DNA from: Enteroscipio rubneri
GTDB taxonomy: Bacteria; Actinomycetota; Coriobacteriia; Coriobacteriales; Eggerthellaceae
DNA: 64,000 bases
NCBI RefSeq assembly: GCF_002899715.1
Contig: NZ_PPEK01000001.1
Span: 310,001 to 374,000 of the forward strand
Reading direction: 5' to 3'
Positions 9,781 to 55,561 of the stretch are shown in pieces; the stretch's first letter is position 1; the number at the start of each line of letters is the position of its first letter. The position numbers were made by a program, and so were the translations under genes. Below the pieces are notes generated by a model. It searched no databases. It was not told where the DNA came from and worked only from the letters and a program-made list of their open reading frames with translations.

Positions 9781-11673
9781 ATGAACGATTCTCGTATTCT
9801 GGACATCGTGTCCTCGCCGGCCGATCTCAAACTGCTCGACGATGAGGAGCTCTCCATCCTCGCGCAGGAGATTCGGGAGGAGATCGTCACGGCGACCTCC
9901 CAGACGGGCGGGCATGTGGCCTCGTCTCTCGGCGCTGTGGAGATCATTCTGGCCGCCCATGCAGTGCTCGATTGCCCGCATGATAAGCTCGTGTTCGATG
10001 TGGGCCACCAGGCCTACGCTCACAAGCTCGTCACGGGTCGCCTGGACGAGTTCAGGACGCTGCGCACCTACGGCGGGCTGTCGGGTTTCCCCAAGCCGGG
10101 GGAAAGCCCCTACGACGTGCATCCGTCTGGTCATGCGTCGGACTCCCTCTCGGTGGCCCTCGGCCTTGCTAAGGCGCGCGACTTAACCGGAGACGACCAG
10201 CGGGTTGTAGCCATCATCGGCGATGCGGCGCTGTCGGGCGGGATGGCTTTCGAGGCGCTCAACCACATAGGCCAGGCGCAGACGCCGCTCGTCGTCATCC
10301 TCAACGACAATGAGATGTCCATATCGCGCAATGTGGGCGCGCTCATGAAGCATCTTGGGTACATGCGGGCGTCCACGCAGTACCGTCAGACGCGCGACTC
10401 CTTGCAGGAGGCGCTCGAGAGCAGCGGCGCCGTGGGCAACGCGCTCGCGAATTTCGGGCGCAACGTGAAGGAATCGATGAAACAGTTCATCATTCCGCGC
10501 TCGATGATTTTCGAGCAGCTGGGCATCCTGTGCACCGCCCCCATCGACGGCCACGACATCAAAGCGCTGCGGGAGACGTTGGCCGCCGTGCTCGAGACGG
10601 ATGGGCCGGTGCTCATGCACGTGGTCACGCGCAAGGGCGCAGGCTACGAGCCGGCGGTTCGCAACCCCGAGAAGTTCCACGGCATCGCGCCGTTCGACAT
10701 TGCGACAGGCGAAGTGAAAAAGAAGCCGTGCAGCGCGCCTTCGTACACGAGCGTGTTCGGCCGGGCTCTCGTGGAAGAGGCGCGTCGCGACGAGCGCATC
10801 GTCGCCATCACGGCTGCCATGAAGGACGGCACGGGCCTGAGTCCCTTTGCCGAAGAGTTCCCCGACCGTTTCGTCGACGCCGGCATTGCCGAGGAACATG
10901 CAGTGGGTATGGCCTCGGGGTTGGCTATCGGTGGCAGAAAGCCGGTTGTGGCCATCTATTCGACGTTTCTGCAGCGCGCCATCGACCAGATGGCCATCAA
11001 CAATGCGCTGGCCGATCTCGATGTGGTGTTCGCCATCGATCGTGCGGGCGTCGTGGGGGAGGACGGTCCGACGCACCACGGCATGTACGATCTCGTGTAC
11101 ACGCGGATGGTGCCGAACATGCGCGTGCTCGCGCCGTCCGACGAGGCCGAGCTCGTGCACGCGCTGCACACGGCACTCGCGCTCGGAGGACCCTTCGCCA
11201 TCCGCTACCCGCGCGGAGCGGCCGAAGGTGTTCCGCTCCCTGAGCAGCCGCGCGTGCTGGAGGAGGGCAAGGCCCGCGTCATGCGCGAAGGAGACGATGC
11301 GGCTATTCTCGCGTTCGGGCGGATGGTGCCCCGGGCGCTCGGCGCGGCGGAGCTTCTAGCCGAACGCGGCATCGAGGCGCGTGTCGTGGACATGCGGTGG
11401 GCCAAGCCTCTCGATGCTCACGAGATTGCGCGTGCTGCGCAGACGAAGCTACTCGTCACGGTCGAAGGCGGCGTCATCGAAGGCGGCGTGGGCGAAGGCG
11501 TGCTCGGAGAGCTGGCGCGTCAGGGACTTTCAGCCCCCGCGTTGACGCTCGGCATTCCCGACCGCTTCGTTCCCCAAGGCAAGTCGGATGATCTTCTGTG
11601 TGACTTGGGCCTCGATGCTGAAGGCATCGCTGCTTCCGTGGAGCGTCGCCTCGCTTCGTCCAATCCATTCTGA
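9781..11673 (+). CDS. dxs: 1-deoxy-D-xylulose-5-phosphate synthase
   Basis: This 630-residue thiamine-diphosphate enzyme condenses pyruvate and glyceraldehyde 3-phosphate in the first step of the MEP isoprenoid pathway. Motifs are FDVGHQAYAHKLVTGR, the ThDP motif IGDAALSGGMAFEALN through LNDNEMSIS, the catalytic-glutamate segment FVDAGIAEEHAVGMASGLA, and VGEDGPTHHG. Three transketolase-like domains are present at full length. The start lies 18 bases after xseB, preceded by AAAGGA, in the familiar nusB-xseB-dxs order. Confidence 0.96.
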   Translation: MNDSRILDIVSSPADLKLLDDEELSILAQEIREEIVTATSQTGGHVASSLGAVEIILAAHAVLDCPHDKLVFDVGHQAYAHKLVTGRLDEFRTLRTYGGLSGFPKPGESPYDVHPSGHASDSLSVALGLAKARDLTGDDQRVVAIIGDAALSGGMAFEALNHIGQAQTPLVVILNDNEMSISRNVGALMKHLGYMRASTQYRQTRDSLQEALESSGAVGNALANFGRNVKESMKQFIIPRSMIFEQLGILCTAPIDGHDIKALRETLAAVLETDGPVLMHVVTRKGAGYEPAVRNPEKFHGIAPFDIATGEVKKKPCSAPSYTSVFGRALVEEARRDERIVAITAAMKDGTGLSPFAEEFPDRFVDAGIAEEHAVGMASGLAIGGRKPVVAIYSTFLQRAIDQMAINNALADLDVVFAIDRAGVVGEDGPTHHGMYDLVYTRMVPNMRVLAPSDEAELVHALHTALALGGPFAIRYPRGAAEGVPLPEQPRVLEEGKARVMREGDDAAILAFGRMVPRALGAAELLAERGIEARVVDMRWAKPLDAHEIARAAQTKLLVTVEGGVIEGGVGEGVLGELARQGLSAPALTLGIPDRFVPQGKSDDLLCDLGLDAEGIAASVERRLASSNPF

Positions 11674-26410: not shown

Positions 26411-27328
26411 ATGAGAATCGAGCAGCTGCGCTATTTCATCGATGTGGCCCAAACGCAATCACTTACGAGGTCAGCGAGCAATCTGTTCATTTCGCCGCAG
26501 GGACTGAGTCAGGCGATAACCGCTCTCGAGAAGGAATGCGGCATGACGTTCTTCGAGCGTTCGAAGAACGGGCTCGTGCTCAACGATAAGGGTTCGGCGC
26601 TGCGTGAGTTGGCGATCGATCTGTGCGCGCGGGTTGACACGTTCAACCTCAACGTTGCCCAACTGGCAGACGTTCGAACGGAGCTGGGGAAAGAGGCGTT
26701 CTCGCTCTACCTGCCCCCGCTGATCATCTTAGGCGATGCGCTTGCACCCTTAATGGATGAGCTCGAACACGCGTTTTCCTCCGTCGACTTTTCGGTGTCC
26801 GAGAAGAATTTGGACGACGTGCCCGCCCGGTGCCCGAGCCTTATGGAGGGGGGCAACTGCGTGGCTCTCGCAAACGTCCCGGATTTCCGGGAGGGAGAGC
26901 TGGCCGATCTCGTCGGCTTCTGCACTGATTGCTTTCTTGAGATGCCTATCGTCGCGAAGATCCATCGCTCATCGCCGCTTGCGGGCAAGCGCTATCTGAC
27001 GAAACAAGAGCTATCGACGCTGCCTCTGGTTTGCTTCAACGAGCCAGTGATGGAGTCGGTCATCATGGAGCTGGTACGGGAATTCGGAGAGCCTCACATC
27101 GTTTTGAAGGGTTCGACCGGTGCGATGCTCCAGGTGCGCAAAGACGCCGTGGCGGTGTCGGTCGGCCTCCTTCCTCCCTCGGACGAAACCATCTCCATTC
27201 CCATTTCAGACCCGATGCTGCTCAGGATAGTCGCCGTCTATCCTGAGGACCTGCCCGCCAAAAGCCTCGACCTCATCGCCGCCATCAAGCGGTTCTTCGT
27301 CGATCGCTACCCCCAGTATCAAAAGTAA
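26411..27328 (+). CDS. LysR-family transcriptional regulator
   Basis: This 305-residue protein has the N-terminal LysR winged HTH (MRIEQLRYFIDVAQTQSLTR, SASNLFISPQGLSQAITALEKECGMTFFERSKNGLVLNDKG) and an effector-binding domain from about residue 90. The effector domain is divergent; the ligand cannot be named. It sits directly upstream of, and on the same strand as, a molybdoenzyme operon, so it is a likely dedicated regulator. The ATG at 26411 fits the family N-terminus; the open frame upstream to 26363 is not homologous. Confidence 0.9.
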   Translation: MRIEQLRYFIDVAQTQSLTRSASNLFISPQGLSQAITALEKECGMTFFERSKNGLVLNDKGSALRELAIDLCARVDTFNLNVAQLADVRTELGKEAFSLYLPPLIILGDALAPLMDELEHAFSSVDFSVSEKNLDDVPARCPSLMEGGNCVALANVPDFREGELADLVGFCTDCFLEMPIVAKIHRSSPLAGKRYLTKQELSTLPLVCFNEPVMESVIMELVREFGEPHIVLKGSTGAMLQVRKDAVAVSVGLLPPSDETISIPISDPMLLRIVAVYPEDLPAKSLDLIAAIKRFFVDRYPQYQK

Positions 27329-35879: not shown

Positions 35880-36206
35880 GGAGAACTCCTTGTGTTTCGA
35901 TGGGGAAGGCGGCCGCGTCGATCGGGCGCGGCATGCATTTCAGTGTGAGGTTGCGGCGGCTGCTCTGCCAGCCATTCTCGTTGGCAATTCGGGCGCAACG
36001 AGACGTTGCGCATGGGCAGGCATGCGCGCAGACGTCACCGGTTACAGAAATGCATGAAACATCGAGACAGAGCTCCTTGGAAGACGGCGAAACGGCGATC
36101 AGTGTACCATGCGTGCGAACGCTGTCAAGGGAGTGGGTTCATGCGCCCCGGTTTGCGCCGTCGCACGATAAGGGGTTACAATCTCACTTCGGACAAAGGA
36201 GGGGAA
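35880..36206. other. Divergent intergenic region, MFS operon / NrfD operon
   Basis: I see no gene in these 327 bases. The right end holds the candidate promoter of the NrfD-GntR-slipin operon. The left end must hold the MFS promoter, but no convincing box was found. Confidence 0.5.
36153..36182 (+). promoter_or_regulatory. Candidate promoter of the NrfD-GntR-slipin operon
   Basis: TTGCGC and TACAAT are separated by 18 bases. The start codon lies 24 bases after the -10, leaving room for a short leader containing the AAAGGAGG site. Confidence 0.45.
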
Positions 36207-37079
36207 GTGTCGAGCTCGCTCATCATCGCGTACCTTTTCCTGGGCGGCGCCGGCGCGGGCATGCTCTTCGTCCTGTCGGCTGTAAGCTTCTTCTCGCCGT
36301 CGCGAGATCTCGATCTCGACGGGTCGGGCCGCCTGCAGCCGTGGGGATCGTATGCGCGTCTTTACGGCCTCGGGTACTGCGTCTCTTTGGCAATCTGCAT
36401 AGTCGCGGCGCTGTGTCTCGTGTTCGATATGGCTCGTCCCGACGCGATTCTTGGCCTCATCTTCAATCCGAACGTATCGGTCGTTTCCATCGGCGCCTAT
36501 GGGCTCGGCCTCTGCATCGCATTGAATGCCGCCCTCGCGATCATATGGCTTTCGCATTTCAGACCGAACATCATGCTCTGTCGCATCGTCTCAGCGCTTG
36601 CGATCGTTGCGGCTTGTGTGGTTATGTCGTACACCGGTCTTCTGCTCGGCATCATTCCACATGCGGTCTTCTGGCAGTCGCCGCTGATCGTCGTTCTGTT
36701 TGTTCTTTCGTCGCTTTCGTGCGGCATCGCTTTGGTTGTGCTGGCGATGATGGCGTTTCGGCTGCTCGCACCGTTTTGGAACGCTGCGCGTACCGTGCTG
36801 TTAGTTGACGGGGTGCTCATCGGGGTCGAATTGATCGTGCTCACCGTCTTCATCGCATCCTCCCAGCAGAGCGCTCCTGAAGCGGTTGAGACGTTGGTGA
36901 CGGGGGACCTTGCGGCGCTTTTCTGGACGGGGCTCGTGGCGATGGGACTCGTGGTGCCGCTTGCGATGGAGCTTGCTTCGCGCTGGAAGGTGGGGCTGGA
37001 TGTCCACCCGTGCATTCCCGCCGTGCTCGTTCTCATCGGGGGGCTGTGTTTGAGAATCTGCATCGTCTTCGCAGCTTGA
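36207..37079 (+). CDS. Orphan NrfD/DmsC-like membrane protein
   Basis: This 290-residue polytopic protein has about eight hydrophobic segments. YLFLGGAGAGMLFVLSAV near the N-terminus is the glycine-rich first helix typical of NrfD/DmsC subunits, and FDMARPDAILGLIFNPNVSV matches the conserved second region. Such proteins pass electrons between quinones and iron-sulfur subunits, but no catalytic or ferredoxin gene is in its operon. The next genes encode a GntR regulator and an SPFH protein. GTG 36207, seven bases after AAAGGAGG, is the best start; the longer open frame lacks homology. Confidence 0.78.
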   Translation: MSSSLIIAYLFLGGAGAGMLFVLSAVSFFSPSRDLDLDGSGRLQPWGSYARLYGLGYCVSLAICIVAALCLVFDMARPDAILGLIFNPNVSVVSIGAYGLGLCIALNAALAIIWLSHFRPNIMLCRIVSALAIVAACVVMSYTGLLLGIIPHAVFWQSPLIVVLFVLSSLSCGIALVVLAMMAFRLLAPFWNAARTVLLVDGVLIGVELIVLTVFIASSQQSAPEAVETLVTGDLAALFWTGLVAMGLVVPLAMELASRWKVGLDVHPCIPAVLVLIGGLCLRICIVFAA

Positions 37080-37130: not shown

Positions 37131-37547
37131 ATGTTCCCCTTCGAGATGGACAACGAAAGCGGTGTGCCGCTGTGGATACAGCTGCGCAACCGCCTCGTCC
37201 ACCTCATCAACTCCGGTTACTACAAGCCGGGCGATCAGCTTCCCACGGTGCACGCCATGGCTTCCGAGCTGTCCATCAATTACAACACGGTGAACAAGGT
37301 GTACGTCAACCTTGCGAACGACGGGTACATCACCTCCATCCGCGGGCGCGGCGCTTTCGTCAACGACTTTGATTCCGATATGAGCCAGGAGCATGCGCAG
37401 GCGGTCGAACAAGTGCTCGACGAGTGCATAGCCGCGTGTATGGATCTGGGACTTTCCCTCCAGGATGTGGCGGCCGCCATGCGAAAGCAGATTCGCAAGA
37501 CCGAGAAAAGCCAGGTGTCCGACAAGACGCCGCCGACAAGGAGCTGA
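37131..37547 (+). CDS. GntR-family regulator, short YtrA-like form
   Basis: This 138-residue protein has the GntR winged HTH (VPLWIQLRNRLVHLINSGYY, KPGDQLPTVHAMASELSINYNTVNKVYVNLANDGYI, RGRGAFV) followed by a short helical tail instead of a large effector domain, the YtrA layout. The ATG at 37131 follows AAGGAG. It lies between an NrfD-like gene and a slipin gene, three bases before the latter, so it probably controls its own operon. Confidence 0.88.
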   Translation: MFPFEMDNESGVPLWIQLRNRLVHLINSGYYKPGDQLPTVHAMASELSINYNTVNKVYVNLANDGYITSIRGRGAFVNDFDSDMSQEHAQAVEQVLDECIAACMDLGLSLQDVAAAMRKQIRKTEKSQVSDKTPPTRS

Positions 37548-37550
37548 CCT

Positions 37551-38498
37551 ATGGGATCGAGCAAGAAAGAGCGTCGCATCAGCAGTGCGGCATCGCATTT
37601 CGAGGCGTCTCCGAGCGGGCGACAGGACGTGGCGCTGCAACGCGCCTCGCGCAATGGCATCTACTTCTTCCAGATGGCGCTGTTCTTCATTGCGTTCGGA
37701 CTCGTCTGCCTTGCCTTCTTCCTGCTTGCGGGCAGCGTTGGCTTCGTGGCTGTCGCCGTCGCTTCGGTTGTCGCGCTGCTGCTGGTTTCGTGCACGCATG
37801 TCGCCCAGCAGTGGGAGCGTGTCGTGGTCATGCGCCTCGGTCGGTTCAAGTGCGTCAAAGGCCCGGGCATCTTCTTTACGGTACCGCTGGTTGACTATTG
37901 CACTATGCGCGTTGACCAGCGCATTCGGTCAACTGCGTTCGGAGCCGAAGAAACGCTGACGGCCGATCTTGTCCCGCTTGACGTCGATGCCGTGCTGTTT
38001 TGGATGGTGCACGATACCGAGAAGGCCTGCACCGTGGTCGACGATTACGAGCTGTTGGTGCTTCAGTCGTCTCAGACCATCCTGCGCGATGCCATCGGCC
38101 GCGCGAACGTGGCCGAGGTCACGTCGCGTCGCGAGCAGCTTGACCGCGAGTTGAAGCGCTTGCTGGAAGACAAGGTCGCCCCGTGGGGCGTCACGGTGCT
38201 TTCCGTGGAGATCCGCGATATCCTTATGCCCAAGGAGCTGCAAGATGTCATGTCCATGGAGGCCCAGGCCGAGCAGAAGCGCAAGGCTCGCGTGGTGCTC
38301 ATGGAGGCGGAGCAGGATATCTCCGAGATGATGGGCGGCATCGCCTCGGCGTACGATCAGGACGACAAGGCTATGCAGCTGCGGCAGATGCACCTGCTTT
38401 ACGAGGGGGTCAAAGAGGGCAGGGGCGCGGTCGTCGTTCCCAGCTCGTGGGGCGATTCCTTCGGCGAACAGGTGGGCAAGGGCATCGCGGGCGAATAG
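37551..38498 (+). CDS. Slipin/stomatin-like SPFH-domain membrane protein
   Basis: This 315-residue protein has two adjacent hydrophobic segments (about residues 38-83) and an SPFH domain starting at QQWERVVVMRLGRFKCVKGPG. VPLDVDAVLFWMVHD, LQSSQTILRDAIGRANVAEV and LSVEIRDILMPKELQDVM then follow, as in slipins. It likely oligomerises into membrane microdomain scaffolds. No NfeD-like protease partner follows. The short gap behind the GntR gene indicates one operon. Confidence 0.88.
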   Translation: MGSSKKERRISSAASHFEASPSGRQDVALQRASRNGIYFFQMALFFIAFGLVCLAFFLLAGSVGFVAVAVASVVALLLVSCTHVAQQWERVVVMRLGRFKCVKGPGIFFTVPLVDYCTMRVDQRIRSTAFGAEETLTADLVPLDVDAVLFWMVHDTEKACTVVDDYELLVLQSSQTILRDAIGRANVAEVTSRREQLDRELKRLLEDKVAPWGVTVLSVEIRDILMPKELQDVMSMEAQAEQKRKARVVLMEAEQDISEMMGGIASAYDQDDKAMQLRQMHLLYEGVKEGRGAVVVPSSWGDSFGEQVGKGIAGE

Positions 38499-38631
38499 CC
38501 GACATGGTAATCGGCGTCGCTGAGGCCGGTGCGTCCATGCTGAGGGCGCGCGGGTGCTACGCGTTTCGGCGGTCCGTCGTCGCGCGCATTTCTATCTCAA
38601 AATAGAATAATCGGACCCATCGGTGGAGCTT

Positions 38632-38665
38632 GACTTTTCATATGAAAACATGTTTTCATATGAAA
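38632..38665. promoter_or_regulatory. 34-bp perfect palindrome made of two TTTTCATATGAAAA sites
   Basis: Two copies of the 14-bp palindrome TTTTCATATGAAAA (38633-38646 and 38651-38664) flank CATG, and the whole 34 bases are self-complementary. The block begins inside a TTGACT -35 (38628-38633) and covers where the -10 should be. It is AT-rich in a GC-rich genome, as expected for a strong double operator upstream of molybdoenzyme operon 2. Confidence 0.75.
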
Positions 38666-38666
38666 A

Positions 38667-38680
38667 GCGGATTGGCCAAT
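38667..38680. promoter_or_regulatory. Adjacent 14-bp palindrome GGATTGGCCAATCC
   Basis: This perfect palindrome starts one base after the 34-bp operator block. It may be an additional regulator site or the base of a leader hairpin. Confidence 0.45.
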
Positions 38681-38778
38681 CCTTCAAGACGAGAACGGGG
38701 AAGGCTTCTGCCATCATGGGGGATATGCCTTCTTCTCAGGTGCGCATTGCGCACATGAAGAAAAAGGAGGGGGAAGCA

Positions 38779-41238
38779 ATGTCTGCAGTCGCAGCATCGA
38801 CCGCGAATCTGACGCGGCGCAATTTCCTCAAGGCGAGCATCGCCGTAGCGGGCGGGACATGGCTTGGAACCGCTATCGGCTGCTCTTCGGGCGATTCTCT
38901 TTCGGGAGAAGGCTCATCTTCGCAAGCGGAGGAACAGGTGTTCAACGGCGTGTGCAAGCCGAACTGTTTCCACGGGTGCCAGCTCAAGGTTCATGTTCGA
39001 GAAGGCAAAGTCGTAAAAACGTCGGCCGCGCCGTATCCGAACCCGGAATTCAACCGTATTTGCCTGCGCGGTCTTTCACATGTGACCAACATCTACGACC
39101 CCGATCGCGTGCAGTATCCGCTCAAACGCGTCGGGGAACGCGGTGCGAACGAATGGGAGCGCATCAGCTGGGAAGACGCGATAGCCGAGATTGCCGAGAA
39201 GTTCACGAGCTATCGCGAAGAGTTTGGCGACCAAGCCGTCATGAAATGCGCGGTGAGTGGGAATTATGGTTCGATCAACGGCGGTTTCACGAGCAAGTTC
39301 TTCAGCTCCATCAATGCTTCCACCATGGCGCCGAGCCTTGACTTGAGCAATGCCATCGGTTTGAACCGCGTCGTGGGATGGGCGGGAACGTGGATGGGCA
39401 ACGATCCGCGCGACCTGAAGAACGCGAAAAACATCTTTATCTGGGGTAACAATATCACCGATGCGCAAATCCATGAATGGCATTTCGTGGCTGATGCTAT
39501 CGAGGCGGGCTCGAACGTCATCGTCGTCGATCCGATCTTTACACATATGGCTGCGAAAGCGCAAAAGTTCGTTCCCATCAGGCCGGGGGCGGATGCGGCG
39601 CTCATCCTTTCGATGATGCAAGTGGTCATAGAGGAAGATCTCATAGATCGCGAGTTCATGCAGAAATACACCGTTGCCCCGTTCCTCGTCCGCGACGATA
39701 CGGGCATGTTCTTGCGTATGAGCGATGTGGGCGTTCAACCTGCGGAGGGGCCCGTCAATCTACTCACCGGAGAGCCGACCAAGATCGATCCGGCCGTCGT
39801 ATGGGATGGCGTGGCCGGTGCGTCCGCATCGTCCGCCGAATGCGCCGCCCCTGAGATAGAAGGCGAATTCACCGTCGAGGGCGTTGCGTGCCATACTGCG
39901 TACAGCCTGTTGAAGGCAGAAGCTTCTCAATATCCGCCAGACGTGGCAGAGGGCATCACCGAAGTTCCAGCTGCCACCATTGTCGAACTCGCGCACCTTG
40001 CAGCCGATGGACCGGTCACGCATCGCGTCGGTTGGGGACCGCAGGCATACGACAACGGCGTCCATCCTCATCATGCAGGGGCTGCCCTTGCGGCCATTAC
40101 GGGACAGATGTGCGAGCCCGGCAAAATCTATGGATGCGCGGATATCAACGGTTTCACCGGGTTCGATGCAACGCTGAGCGCTCCGGCGACTCCGGTAACG
40201 TCGCCGACAATATCCAACCTGATCATGCCCGAGGTTATGGAGACGGGCACGTACATGGGCGAAGACATCGTCATCAAGGCGCTTTGGGTTTACCAGGGCA
40301 ATCCGCTGTGCACGTTCGTCGACAGCAATGCGAAAAAGAAGATGTTTGACAAGTTCGAATTCATCGTTACCGTCGACTCCATGCTTACCGATACGGCTCG
40401 CTATTCGGATATGGTGCTGCCTTGCGCCCAGTTCTTCGAGTACGAGGATATCGTGGGCAGCGGCAACAACAACCACGTCGTCCATTGCGACAAGGCTATC
40501 GATCCTCCGTTCGAAGCAAAGCCGGATACGGAGATCATGCGCATGCTTGCAGAGAAGATGGGCATGGCCGACCTGTTCCCCGAGAGCGATTCCGAATGGC
40601 TGCAGAAATACGTGGACACGGAGGCTGCAGCGGCGTTGGGCATCAGCTACGACGCGTTGAAGGAGAAGAAGGCTATCCGGTGGGCGCCCGATCCGCTTGT
40701 GCGGTGGACGGACAAGAAGTTCCTGACGCCGTCCGGCCGAATGGAGTTCTACGTCGAAGCGCCGACTCCGATGGATTACTACGGCCAGCAGATCGACGTC
40801 AATCGCGAGCACCTGCCGCGGTTCTTCCCGCCGACCGAGGCATGGCCCGAGAATCCTCTCCACGAGAAGTATCCCTTCGTCCTGCTGTCCGAGCGCCCGC
40901 GATTCCGTGTGCACGGGCAGTGGTTCAACAACAGAATCCTTCGCGAACTCGACCCTGAGCCCACGGTGAAGATCAACCCCGCCGATGCCGCCGCCAAGGG
41001 CATCAAGACGGGCGACCATGTCGAATGCTACAACGATCGAGGCCACGCGGTGGCCATGGCGGTGCTCAATGAGGCCGTACGGCCCGGCACCCTCGTATAT
41101 CCGAAGAGCTGGCAGGTCCATCAGCACCTTGCAGGCGGTTGGTCCGAGCTTTCGTCCTCGTCGCACGACCCGGTGGCGGTGAACCAAAGCTACATGGACG
41201 AGCTCTGCGACATTCGCGCATGGGAAGGAGCTGAATAA
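38779..41238 (+). CDS. Tat-exported molybdopterin oxidoreductase, DmsA-like catalytic subunit (operon 2)
   Basis: This 819-residue protein carries a Tat signal (LTRRNFLKAS, Arg 13-14) ending in AIGC, so Cys35 may be lipidated. The [4Fe-4S] ligands are C59, C63, C67 and C95 (C-x3-C-x3-C), the DmsA-like spacing. SLDLSNAIG puts Ser190 at the molybdenum ligand position, consistent with serine-ligated DMSO/TMAO/biotin-sulfoxide reductases. Typical C-terminal motifs are GRMEFYVEAP, LLSERPRFRVHGQW and INPADAAAKGIKTGDHVE. The ATG at 38779 follows AAAGGAGGGGG; the open frame upstream crosses the operator. The acceptor is likely an S- or N-oxide but is unproven. Confidence 0.9.
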   Translation: MSAVAASTANLTRRNFLKASIAVAGGTWLGTAIGCSSGDSLSGEGSSSQAEEQVFNGVCKPNCFHGCQLKVHVREGKVVKTSAAPYPNPEFNRICLRGLSHVTNIYDPDRVQYPLKRVGERGANEWERISWEDAIAEIAEKFTSYREEFGDQAVMKCAVSGNYGSINGGFTSKFFSSINASTMAPSLDLSNAIGLNRVVGWAGTWMGNDPRDLKNAKNIFIWGNNITDAQIHEWHFVADAIEAGSNVIVVDPIFTHMAAKAQKFVPIRPGADAALILSMMQVVIEEDLIDREFMQKYTVAPFLVRDDTGMFLRMSDVGVQPAEGPVNLLTGEPTKIDPAVVWDGVAGASASSAECAAPEIEGEFTVEGVACHTAYSLLKAEASQYPPDVAEGITEVPAATIVELAHLAADGPVTHRVGWGPQAYDNGVHPHHAGAALAAITGQMCEPGKIYGCADINGFTGFDATLSAPATPVTSPTISNLIMPEVMETGTYMGEDIVIKALWVYQGNPLCTFVDSNAKKKMFDKFEFIVTVDSMLTDTARYSDMVLPCAQFFEYEDIVGSGNNNHVVHCDKAIDPPFEAKPDTEIMRMLAEKMGMADLFPESDSEWLQKYVDTEAAAALGISYDALKEKKAIRWAPDPLVRWTDKKFLTPSGRMEFYVEAPTPMDYYGQQIDVNREHLPRFFPPTEAWPENPLHEKYPFVLLSERPRFRVHGQWFNNRILRELDPEPTVKINPADAAAKGIKTGDHVECYNDRGHAVAMAVLNEAVRPGTLVYPKSWQVHQHLAGGWSELSSSSHDPVAVNQSYMDELCDIRAWEGAE

Positions 41239-41240
41239 CC

Positions 41241-41861
41241 ATGACCCATTACGGAATGGCGATCGATAAGAAGCGTTGCATCGCCTGCAACACCTGCTGC
41301 GTCGGCTGCAAGGTTGAGAACAACCTTCCCGAGAACATGTGGTGGAACCGCGTGGTCAACGAAGGCGGAGAGAATCCGGATTCGCCGTCGGGTACCTATC
41401 CCGAACTCAAGATGAGCGCCTATACCCTGTCCTGCCAGCACTGCATCAATCCAGCCTGCGTGAGCGTGTGCCCTTCCGAGGCGACCTATCGGGATGCGGA
41501 AACCGGCATCGTCATGCAGGATTTGGATAAGTGCATCGGCTGCAACCTGTGCATTGAAGCCTGCCCCTACGGGGTGCGCACCTTGCAGGAAGACGAGCCG
41601 GTCTATTACACCGATTTCGCTCTCGGCGGAGAGGGCGCGCCTGGGCATATCGCCGGCACGGTGGAGAAGTGCACCTTCTGCCATCACCGCGTGGTGAACG
41701 GCGAGCAGCCCTTCTGCGTGGAAGTGTGCCCGGCCCGCGCACGCACGTTCGGCGATTTGGATGATCCGGACTCCGACCTTTCGAAGCTGATTGCCTCCCG
41801 CGAGTGCGAACAGCTTCAGCTGGACGCGGGCACCGGGCCGAGCGTGTACCTGCTCGTGTAA
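41241..41861 (+). CDS. Four-cluster ferredoxin subunit, DmsB type (operon 2)
   Basis: This 206-residue protein contains four cysteine groups: CIACNTCCVGCK, CQHCINPACVSVCPSEA, CIGCNLCIEACPYGVR and CTFCHHRVVNGEQPFCVEVC. It relays electrons from the membrane protein to the molybdenum subunit. It begins two bases after the catalytic gene and has no signal peptide. Confidence 0.93.
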   Translation: MTHYGMAIDKKRCIACNTCCVGCKVENNLPENMWWNRVVNEGGENPDSPSGTYPELKMSAYTLSCQHCINPACVSVCPSEATYRDAETGIVMQDLDKCIGCNLCIEACPYGVRTLQEDEPVYYTDFALGGEGAPGHIAGTVEKCTFCHHRVVNGEQPFCVEVCPARARTFGDLDDPDSDLSKLIASRECEQLQLDAGTGPSVYLLV

Positions 41862-41958: not shown

Positions 41959-42690
41959 ATGAGCCAGATCGTTTCGGCGACCCTTGTTGTCGTCTTCGCC
42001 GTGGTGTTCAGGGGTGCGGTGAAACAGCGCCCCGTCCTGTTCTATGTCCTTGCGGCGCTCGTGGCCGCCGTCGGCATGTACTTCACGTTCAACCCCAGTC
42101 CGGGCGGCATGGTGCGTGCACTTGCCTATGCTATTCAGAAGGGGCATCCGGGGTTCTCGATGCTGGCTCTCGTCATGTTCGTCGGTGTCTTTGATCGCAA
42201 ATCGGTTGTGCGCCGGGCGCTGGGACCCGTGAGGGGAGAGCTGTCCATTATCGGCGCCATCCTCATGCTGGCCCACGCCGTTCCCTATCTGGCGAATTAC
42301 CTCGCCATGGCGGGCGCGGTATTCTCCCTCAAGCCGAGCGTGCAGATGTCGCTTGCTTTGGCTGTTGTGCTGCTCTTCCTGCTTGGCGTGCTTGCCGTGA
42401 CATCGATTAAGGCGCTGTCCGTTCGCATGGACGCCCGAACGTGGAAGCGCATCCAGCGGCTCGTTTACCCCTTCTTCCTGCTCGTTTTCGTACACCTGCT
42501 TGGGTATATGCTGGTTCCCCTGAGGGCGGGGGCCACCGATCTGCTTGTCGGATTCGGGTTTTACGTAGTGATCTTTGCAGCATATCTGGTACTGAGAACG
42601 AGACGCTTCATACTTGACCGACGGGTCGGACTGCCGGAGTACGGCGCGGCATCGGCCATGATCAGCACTTCCAAGGAGGCTACGCAATGA
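41959..42690 (+). CDS. Heme-b-type membrane protein (operon 2 anchor candidate)
   Basis: This 243-residue protein has about six hydrophobic segments. Histidines inside or next to helices (KGHPGFSM, LMLAHAVPYLANYL, LVFVHLLGYML) are spaced as in ferric-reductase-like/MsrQ heme-b proteins. It occupies the place where an NrfD/DmsC anchor is normally found, so it may be the quinol-oxidising subunit. It overlaps the following torD by four bases. Family placement is from pattern only. Confidence 0.7.
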   Translation: MSQIVSATLVVVFAVVFRGAVKQRPVLFYVLAALVAAVGMYFTFNPSPGGMVRALAYAIQKGHPGFSMLALVMFVGVFDRKSVVRRALGPVRGELSIIGAILMLAHAVPYLANYLAMAGAVFSLKPSVQMSLALAVVLLFLLGVLAVTSIKALSVRMDARTWKRIQRLVYPFFLLVFVHLLGYMLVPLRAGATDLLVGFGFYVVIFAAYLVLRTRRFILDRRVGLPEYGAASAMISTSKEATQ

Positions 42691-43331
42691 TGCAAGAGCA
42701 TTGGATTGATAAAGCGGAGCTGTTCGAGACGCTTTCGCTTGCTTATCTCTACTATCAGAGAGAAACGGTTGAAGTGCTTACAACCGGCGCGTATGCCGAC
42801 GTGCTGTGCGAGGCGATGGCTGCGGTCGGACTTGACGAGGGCCTTGTGTCCGATGTGCGCGCGACGCTGGCCGCCTATCAAGGGGCCGATGTCGAAGAGC
42901 TGTTTCATGCGCTGCGCGTGGAATACACGCGGTTGTTCGTGGGCGCGCCGCATGCAATCGTGTCCCCCTATGCGGGCATATGGTATGCGGAAGAGGTGGG
43001 TGTCACGCCGGTGCTGTTCGTGAATAAGGAGTCCATGGCAGTCGAGCGCTTCATGAAGGCCTGCGGCGTGGACCGTCCTGAGCAGACGAACGAGCCGCTT
43101 GATCATATTGGATCAGAGCTCGAGTTTCTCGAATACCTGTGTCTGGACTGCGCAGGCGTTGTCAACAAGGATGCCGATATTGTGCCCGCCGGTTCGTATG
43201 AGACGTTCTACCAGGAACGGTTTATCGTGTTTGCCAAGCGTTTTGCGGCGGCGGTTGCGCAGAGCAGCAGCGAACCGCTGCTGCGTGCTGCGAGTTCGGT
43301 ACTCCTTGCGCTTCCTGACGAAGCGCTGTAA
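42687..43331 (+). CDS. TorD/DmsD-family maturation chaperone (operon 2)
   Basis: This 214-residue helical protein has the diagnostic DHIGSELEFLEYLCL motif and VEYTRLFVGAPHAIVSPYAGIWY, typical of TorD/NarJ-type chaperones. It should recognise the Tat leader of the operon 2 catalytic subunit. The ATGA overlap ties its translation to the membrane subunit. Confidence 0.92.
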   Translation: MMQEHWIDKAELFETLSLAYLYYQRETVEVLTTGAYADVLCEAMAAVGLDEGLVSDVRATLAAYQGADVEELFHALRVEYTRLFVGAPHAIVSPYAGIWYAEEVGVTPVLFVNKESMAVERFMKACGVDRPEQTNEPLDHIGSELEFLEYLCLDCAGVVNKDADIVPAGSYETFYQERFIVFAKRFAAAVAQSSSEPLLRAASSVLLALPDEAL

Positions 43332-55189: not shown

Positions 55190-55561
55190 TCAGTCCTCCA
55201 TGAGGAGGTCGAGCATGTCGTGAAGCTCGCTCGGCGCGACGCCCGCGCTGCGGGCCTCGTCCAGCGCGCGCGCCATCAGCTCCTCGATGTGCTTCAGACG
55301 CTCTTCGCGCAGAAGCTCCATGTTGCCGCCGGCGACGAAGCTTCCCTTGCCCTGCACCGTCTCGATGAACCCTTGGGCCTCGAGGTCGGCGTAAGCACGC
55401 TTCGTGGTGATGACGCTGATGCGCAGGTCGTTCGCCAGCGCGCGCATCGAGGGAAGCTGGGCGCCCTCCGCGAGCGTTCCGCTGAGGATGAGGTTCTTCA
55501 TCTGGGCGGTTATCTGCTCGTAGATGGGCTTATCGCTTGCGTTCGAGATGATGATGTCCAA
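55190..55561 (-). CDS. GntR/YtrA-family repressor of the ABC operon
   Basis: This 123-residue protein has the GntR HTH (KPIYEQITAQMKNLILSGTL, GAQLPSMRALANDLRISVITTKRAYADLEAQGF, GKGSFVAGG) and a short helical dimerisation tail, the YtrA subfamily. YtrA members repress ABC exporters induced by cell-wall antibiotics, and here the ABC genes follow directly. Confidence 0.92.
   Translation of the reverse strand: MDIIISNASDKPIYEQITAQMKNLILSGTLAEGAQLPSMRALANDLRISVITTKRAYADLEAQGFIETVQGKGSFVAGGNMELLREERLKHIEELMARALDEARSAGVAPSELHDMLDLLMED

Follow-up and report, generated by a model that had tools for sequence, protein, structure and literature searches.

Among the YtrA-type regulators of the GntR family, YtrASa of Sulfolobus acidocaldarius (PDB 6sbs) represses from a 14-bp site situated over the start site, and a contact between its Arg42 and a GC pair in the half-site has been proposed (PMC6746942). 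Most described YtrA regulators have one long site (~24 bp) and ABC transporter neighbours, and a survey of GntR proteins revealed an Arg-G correlation for helix 2 (PMC4494728). The Eggerthellaceae possess many paralogous molybdoenzyme operons, some with known activity on drugs, dietary compounds or host compounds, and little is known of how most of these operons are controlled.

The locus considered here is a palindromic block in the 280-bp gap between the stop codon of an SPFH gene (38498) and the start of a molybdoenzyme gene (38779). It belongs to the window, i.e., the whole analysed stretch of 64,000 nucleotides of Enteroscipio rubneri DNA. The features of the locus, in window coordinates, are as follows.

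36006-37079, plus strand: NrfD-like membrane protein, cassette partner (start codon unsure)
37131-37547, plus strand: YtrA-type GntR regulator, 138 aa, with His41; proposed binder of the palindrome pair
37551-38498, plus strand: SPFH/Band 7 protein, cassette partner
38592-38609, plus strand: AT-rich 18-bp dyad CTATCTCAAAATAGAATA (family consensus TATYCTCAAAATAGAATA), centred 29 bp upstream of the -35
38630-38635, plus strand: predicted -35, TTGACT (TTGA kept in all motif-bearing relatives)
38634-38667, no strand: 34-bp perfect palindrome CTTTTCATATGAAAACATGTTTTCATATGAAAAG, putative operator pair
38635-38648, no strand: putative operator site 1, TTTTCATATGAAAA, within the -35/-10 spacer
38653-38666, no strand: putative operator site 2, TTTTCATATGAAAA, across the predicted -10 and start site
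38654-38659, plus strand: predicted weak -10, TTTCAT (18-bp spacer, 17 in relatives)
38669-38682, plus strand: GGATTGGCCAATCC, predicted early-transcribed palindrome or stem with a GGCC centre, 44 bp from the -35 start
38779-41238, plus strand: molybdopterin oxidoreductase (DMSO reductase superfamily), first gene of the target operon
41241-41861, plus strand: 4Fe-4S electron-transfer subunit
41959-42690, plus strand: ferric-reductase-like membrane protein
42687-43331, plus strand: TorD/NarJ-type chaperone

The GntR protein carries an N-terminal winged helix-turn-helix (PF00392, E 9e-14, residues 18-77), and with ~60 of its 138 aa past this domain it matches in length the reduced C-terminal part (~50 aa, two helices) of YtrA-type regulators. 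Its best solved matches, 6sbs (YtrASa, the first), 3neu, 4ham and 4r1h, are YtrA-type as well. Several traits that are typical of or common in the subfamily, but not strictly defining, are absent. First, the helix 2 arginine at the proposed base-contact position is missing, the window protein and its motif-bearing relatives having His41, while other relatives with a scored operator pair have Arg at residue 41. Second, paired 14-bp sites are found instead of a long (~24 bp) single palindromic operator. Third, the place of the neighbouring ABC transporter operon is taken by the nrfD-gntR-SPFH cassette. A second small GntR-domain protein, ~27-33% identical to the first, is encoded in the window at 55190-55561 on the minus strand.

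The target enzyme contains PF00384, PF01568 and PF04879 along with a twin-arginine leader (RRNFLK), as befits the DMSO reductase superfamily. It reached no NCBIfam equivalog cut-off, and an S- or N-oxide as its substrate is a guess.

Two copies of TTTTCATATGAAAA, 18 bp apart and parted by CATG, make up the 34-bp perfect palindrome reported in the earlier note and confirmed at 38634-38667. The 34-mer far exceeds what chance would give: palindromes in 30 simulated 64-kb windows reached 24 bp at most, and two matches to TTTTCATATGAAAA with at most two mismatches were seen where 0.02 were expected per window. The overlap with a TTGACT -35 proposed in the same note is supported, the palindrome starting at 38634 within the conserved hexamer predicted as the -35 (38630-38635), and the palindromes do appear to cover the promoter of the molybdoenzyme operon as a putative operator block. 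The suggestion of two dimer sites also stands, as a prediction; their placement on one face of the helix through a spacing of about two turns does not, since 18 bp is 1.7 turns (1.6-1.7 with the 17 bp of relatives) and two dimers would lie off one face.

In the 2.83-Mb host genome the exact 14-mer is unique to this block, and allowing two mismatches adds one further site, on another contig. A genome scan for copies at random places inside genes, which had been proposed as a check, found exact matches solely in the SPFH-molybdoenzyme gap. The motif was rejected as the mark of a genome-wide regulon, as it occupies a single place in the host genome. Across the family, exact TTTTCATATGAAAA occurs in six of 136 Eggerthellaceae genomes, in five of which (the window's included) it precedes an orthologous molybdoenzyme operon. 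The molybdoenzymes of the other four are best orthologues of the window's (55-59% identity), and their motif pairs are 17 bp apart, the sites being conserved in genomes G052, G054 and G055 and one copy being altered to TTTTCCTATGAAAA in G133. The exact tandem is limited to four of the motif-bearing genomes (398 genomes of the class were searched). In the other sampled species of the host's genus (G062), both the motif and a close match to the molybdoenzyme are absent. In all five motif-bearing operon loci a gntR-SPFH pair is located directly upstream, and the GntR proteins of the relatives are 63-70% identical to the window's. The genes common to these loci are nrfD, gntR, SPFH, the molybdoenzyme and the Fe-S subunit, and partly the membrane protein and the chaperone; GntR is the sole shared DNA-binding protein, since this set holds no other.

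The remaining genome (G129) has a single exact TTTTCATATGAAAA at L049:628-641, with a TOBE-domain gene on one side and a solute-binding ABC transporter operon, perhaps for molybdate, on the other, and the site sits in the tail of a terminator-like hairpin. Its standing as a sixth member is doubtful, as the stretch contains no GntR cassette or molybdoenzyme and the single site lies beside that hairpin. Another arrangement was seen in G065 (L048, reverse strand, ~9811-9845), where an even longer inverted repeat encloses the two TTATCCTAGGATAA sites and extends over ATACCAAG/CTTGGTAT and the -10.

GntR of the window's type was found in 88 of 136 genomes, and the inspected cases nearly always belonged to an nrfD-gntR-SPFH cassette. 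Eighty cassette loci, found via the GntR alignment, were scanned for operator patterns. The pattern TTnTCnTAnGAnAA occurred 87 times, in 48 of the 80 loci, against at most 9 occurrences (median 0) for rearranged palindromic patterns. A matrix built from these sites gave 175 hits vs 8 in reversed sequence; since the same loci had served to train it, the independent points are the reversed control and where the sites lie. Relatives with an Arg-type GntR carry TTRTCNTANGAYAA sites at a fixed place. All but one of the 159 strong sites in the 80 loci are situated either in the SPFH-molybdoenzyme gap (114) or 5' of nrfD, 0.8-1.7 kb upstream of gntR (44), the last one being elsewhere, and the 340 kb made up of cassette genes and the sequence downstream gave none, be it inside nrfD/gntR, SPFH or the molybdoenzyme. 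The sites 5' of nrfD suggest autoregulation in Arg-type relatives; the window has no site at this place.

In a gap-free alignment, residue 41 falls on Arg42 of YtrASa (6sbs), for which the half-site contact was proposed; this agrees with the Arg-G rule of the GntR survey. His41 is accompanied by T at site position 3 in all five distinct promoters, and Arg41 by G or A in all 52. The operator letter seems to have switched in step with the residue by which the regulator would read it, a strong correlation that is unreplicated, because the tree shows a single switch to His/T: all His/T rows fall into one clade (support 100/99), close to the Arg-type cassette L082, which has 21-bp spacing.

The arrangement of the promoter differs between the two groups. 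In Arg-type promoters the order is site 1, 7 bp, site 2, the -10 TATAGT, and then the GGCC palindrome; the -35 TTGATT overlaps the start of site 2, which occupies the 17-bp spacer, and the sites are two helical turns apart (21 bp in 40 cases, 22 bp in 7). In the window's clade site 1 lies directly behind TTGACT, in the spacer, and site 2 on the -10 and start, with a spacing of 17-18 bp. As the distance from the -35 to the GGCC palindrome is constant (43-48 bp across the window's clade and Arg-type promoters), the promoter would have stayed in place while the operator pair moved. The dyad TATYCTCAAAATAGAATA is centred 39-40 bp before the -35 in most Arg-type promoters; the window's clade has it at 28-29 bp, nearer to the -35 by one helical turn. 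With a matrix for the dyad, 37 of 45 promoters scored above the 99% level of shuffles; since these very promoters had been used to fit the matrix, the constant distance is the better evidence. Judging by this position, the dyad is a possible class-I activator site.

The third palindrome, GGATTGGCCAATCC, begins one base after the 34-mer, as had been noted, following a single C (38668); its end is at 38682, two bases past the 38680 given before. A lone 14-bp palindrome of this kind is unremarkable, since the window contains 14 palindromes of at least 14 bp against 8.5 in simulations; what is remarkable is its conservation at a fixed place. The view that it belongs to the same site as the pair finds no support, as it stays at a set distance from the -35 where the operator shifts and also turns up behind promoters with other operators; for the former reason it was also ruled out as a third GntR site. 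Motif-bearing relatives with the GGCC element have it 44-47 bp from the -35 start, and most of the cassette promoters (noted in L083-L158) contain it just after the predicted start. With at most one mismatch, 47 of 136 genomes contain GAATTTGGCCAATTC, far more than in the reversed control; of 30 copies that were inspected, 25 lie ahead of a molybdoenzyme, in the same orientation, and one more is at a contig end by a gntR-SPFH pair. The arms of the element co-vary, and its centre is 4 or 5 nt, the extra base always being on the 5' side, which hints at an RNA stem. Single-strand folding of the element was no better than that of shuffles, and it may be an RNA stem or a protein site.

The GGCC element also occurs in promoters of another GntR group having a different operator. 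This second group (L177, L184, L193, L200; also L014-L016) adjoins molybdoenzymes and has TVRALAVDLDISYNTVNRAY as helix 2 in L014-L018; in the promoters of these enzymes, the GGCC element comes after another operator-like block, ATTGTCGCAAGACATTGTGATAAT.

The block is very probably the operator of the adjacent YtrA-type GntR, two dimers of which, bound to the 14-bp palindromes, would keep RNA polymerase off the molybdoenzyme operon; this reading comes from sequence comparison. The protein, encoded ~1.1 kb upstream of the block, would place one dimer in the spacer behind the -35 and the other over the -10 and start site until a signal frees them. Already a candidate in the earlier note, it is now strongly favoured as the regulator, being the sole shared DNA-binding protein and having a site type that tracks its sequence. 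It is probably a repressor covering the promoter, repression being deduced from the position of the sites. Because the protein is almost without a ligand domain and is nearly always flanked by NrfD-like and SPFH proteins, the signal may reach it through these membrane-type neighbours. Several observations count against the operator reading: the exact motif in G129 precedes an ABC transporter operon without a GntR cassette, most described YtrA regulators have one ~24 bp site and ABC transporters, and the His/T switch arose a single time.

The main rival to repression is activation by the same GntR through the spacer site, where binding would remodel the promoter in a MerR-like geometry. It draws on the location of site 1 in the spacer, shared by Arg-type promoters, and on the weak -10 TTTCAT, which also fits a promoter needing activation. 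MerR promoters, however, have an over-long spacer, and the spacer here is 17-18 bp. Moreover, site 2 covers the -10 and start, and the YtrA-type protein that has been studied represses (PMC6746942), so activation seems clearly unlikely.

Still less probable is that the GntR neighbour is incidental and the pair is bound by another regulator, such as LysR (26411-27328), a transmembrane LuxR, or a distant one. The GntR alone is common to the motif loci, and site type tracks GntR sequence family-wide, although the 14-mer formally holds T-N11-A, a loose LysR signature, transmembrane LuxRs control enzyme operons of E. lenta (PMC9734109), and the G129 motif has no GntR cassette. The LysR gene, named as a candidate before, is ~10 kb away and missing from the gene set that the motif loci have in common; LysR and transmembrane LuxR are both unlikely binders, as neither belongs to that set. 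Finally, a hairpin, cruciform or terminator is hardly credible: any perfect inverted repeat can fold, but no other direct support was found (terminator prediction made no call at the palindrome and an Rfam search of it gave no match), the predicted start, about 38665-38668 at the end of site 2, would leave most of the palindrome untranscribed, and the 14-mers, although kept in relatives, are anywhere from 17 to 22 bp apart there, so that the long repeat is altered or lost.

Beyond the operator assignment to the YtrA-type GntR, a wider and rather doubtful possibility is that nrfD-gntR-SPFH is a membrane-coupled sensing module, in which the membrane neighbours would hold or release GntR by respiratory state, operator specificity would separate the copies, and the window's clade would have escaped cross-talk by one switch (Arg41 to His, G/A to T, with the pair moved onto the -10).

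No description of a GntR tied to molybdoenzyme operons in Eggerthellaceae was found in the open-access literature. What appears to be new is the probable coupling of a YtrA-type regulator to an operator of two 14-bp sites ahead of a respiratory target, together with a natural switch of specificity. For one class of molybdoenzyme operons there is now a candidate regulator, along with an operator code that is precise and a promoter plan that stays fixed across dozens of genomes. The switch between His and Arg, matched by a base change, offers a natural test of the helix 2 contact proposed for YtrA, and also of how paralogous regulators avoid cross-talk.

YtrASa, the closest solved relative by sequence, resembles the window's regulator in being a small GntR with a reduced C-terminal part, in its 14-bp semi-palindromic core site over the start site, and in a very small regulon beside its own gene with membrane proteins nearby. 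It differs in being archaeal, in having one core site with flanking half-sites and Arg42 at the position of His41, and in its target, which is not a respiratory molybdoenzyme. Bacterial YtrA regulators (PMC4494728) share the subfamily, size and local regulation, and for Arg-type relatives the Arg-G rule in helix 2, but they usually control ABC-transporter operons from single ~24 bp sites, in contrast to the paired 14-bp sites and nrfD-gntR-SPFH cassette described here. The transmembrane LuxRs of Eggerthella lenta (PMC9734109) belong to an unrelated protein family and no such gene is common to the motif loci; yet they, too, act locally on molybdoenzyme operons and come from the same bacterial family.
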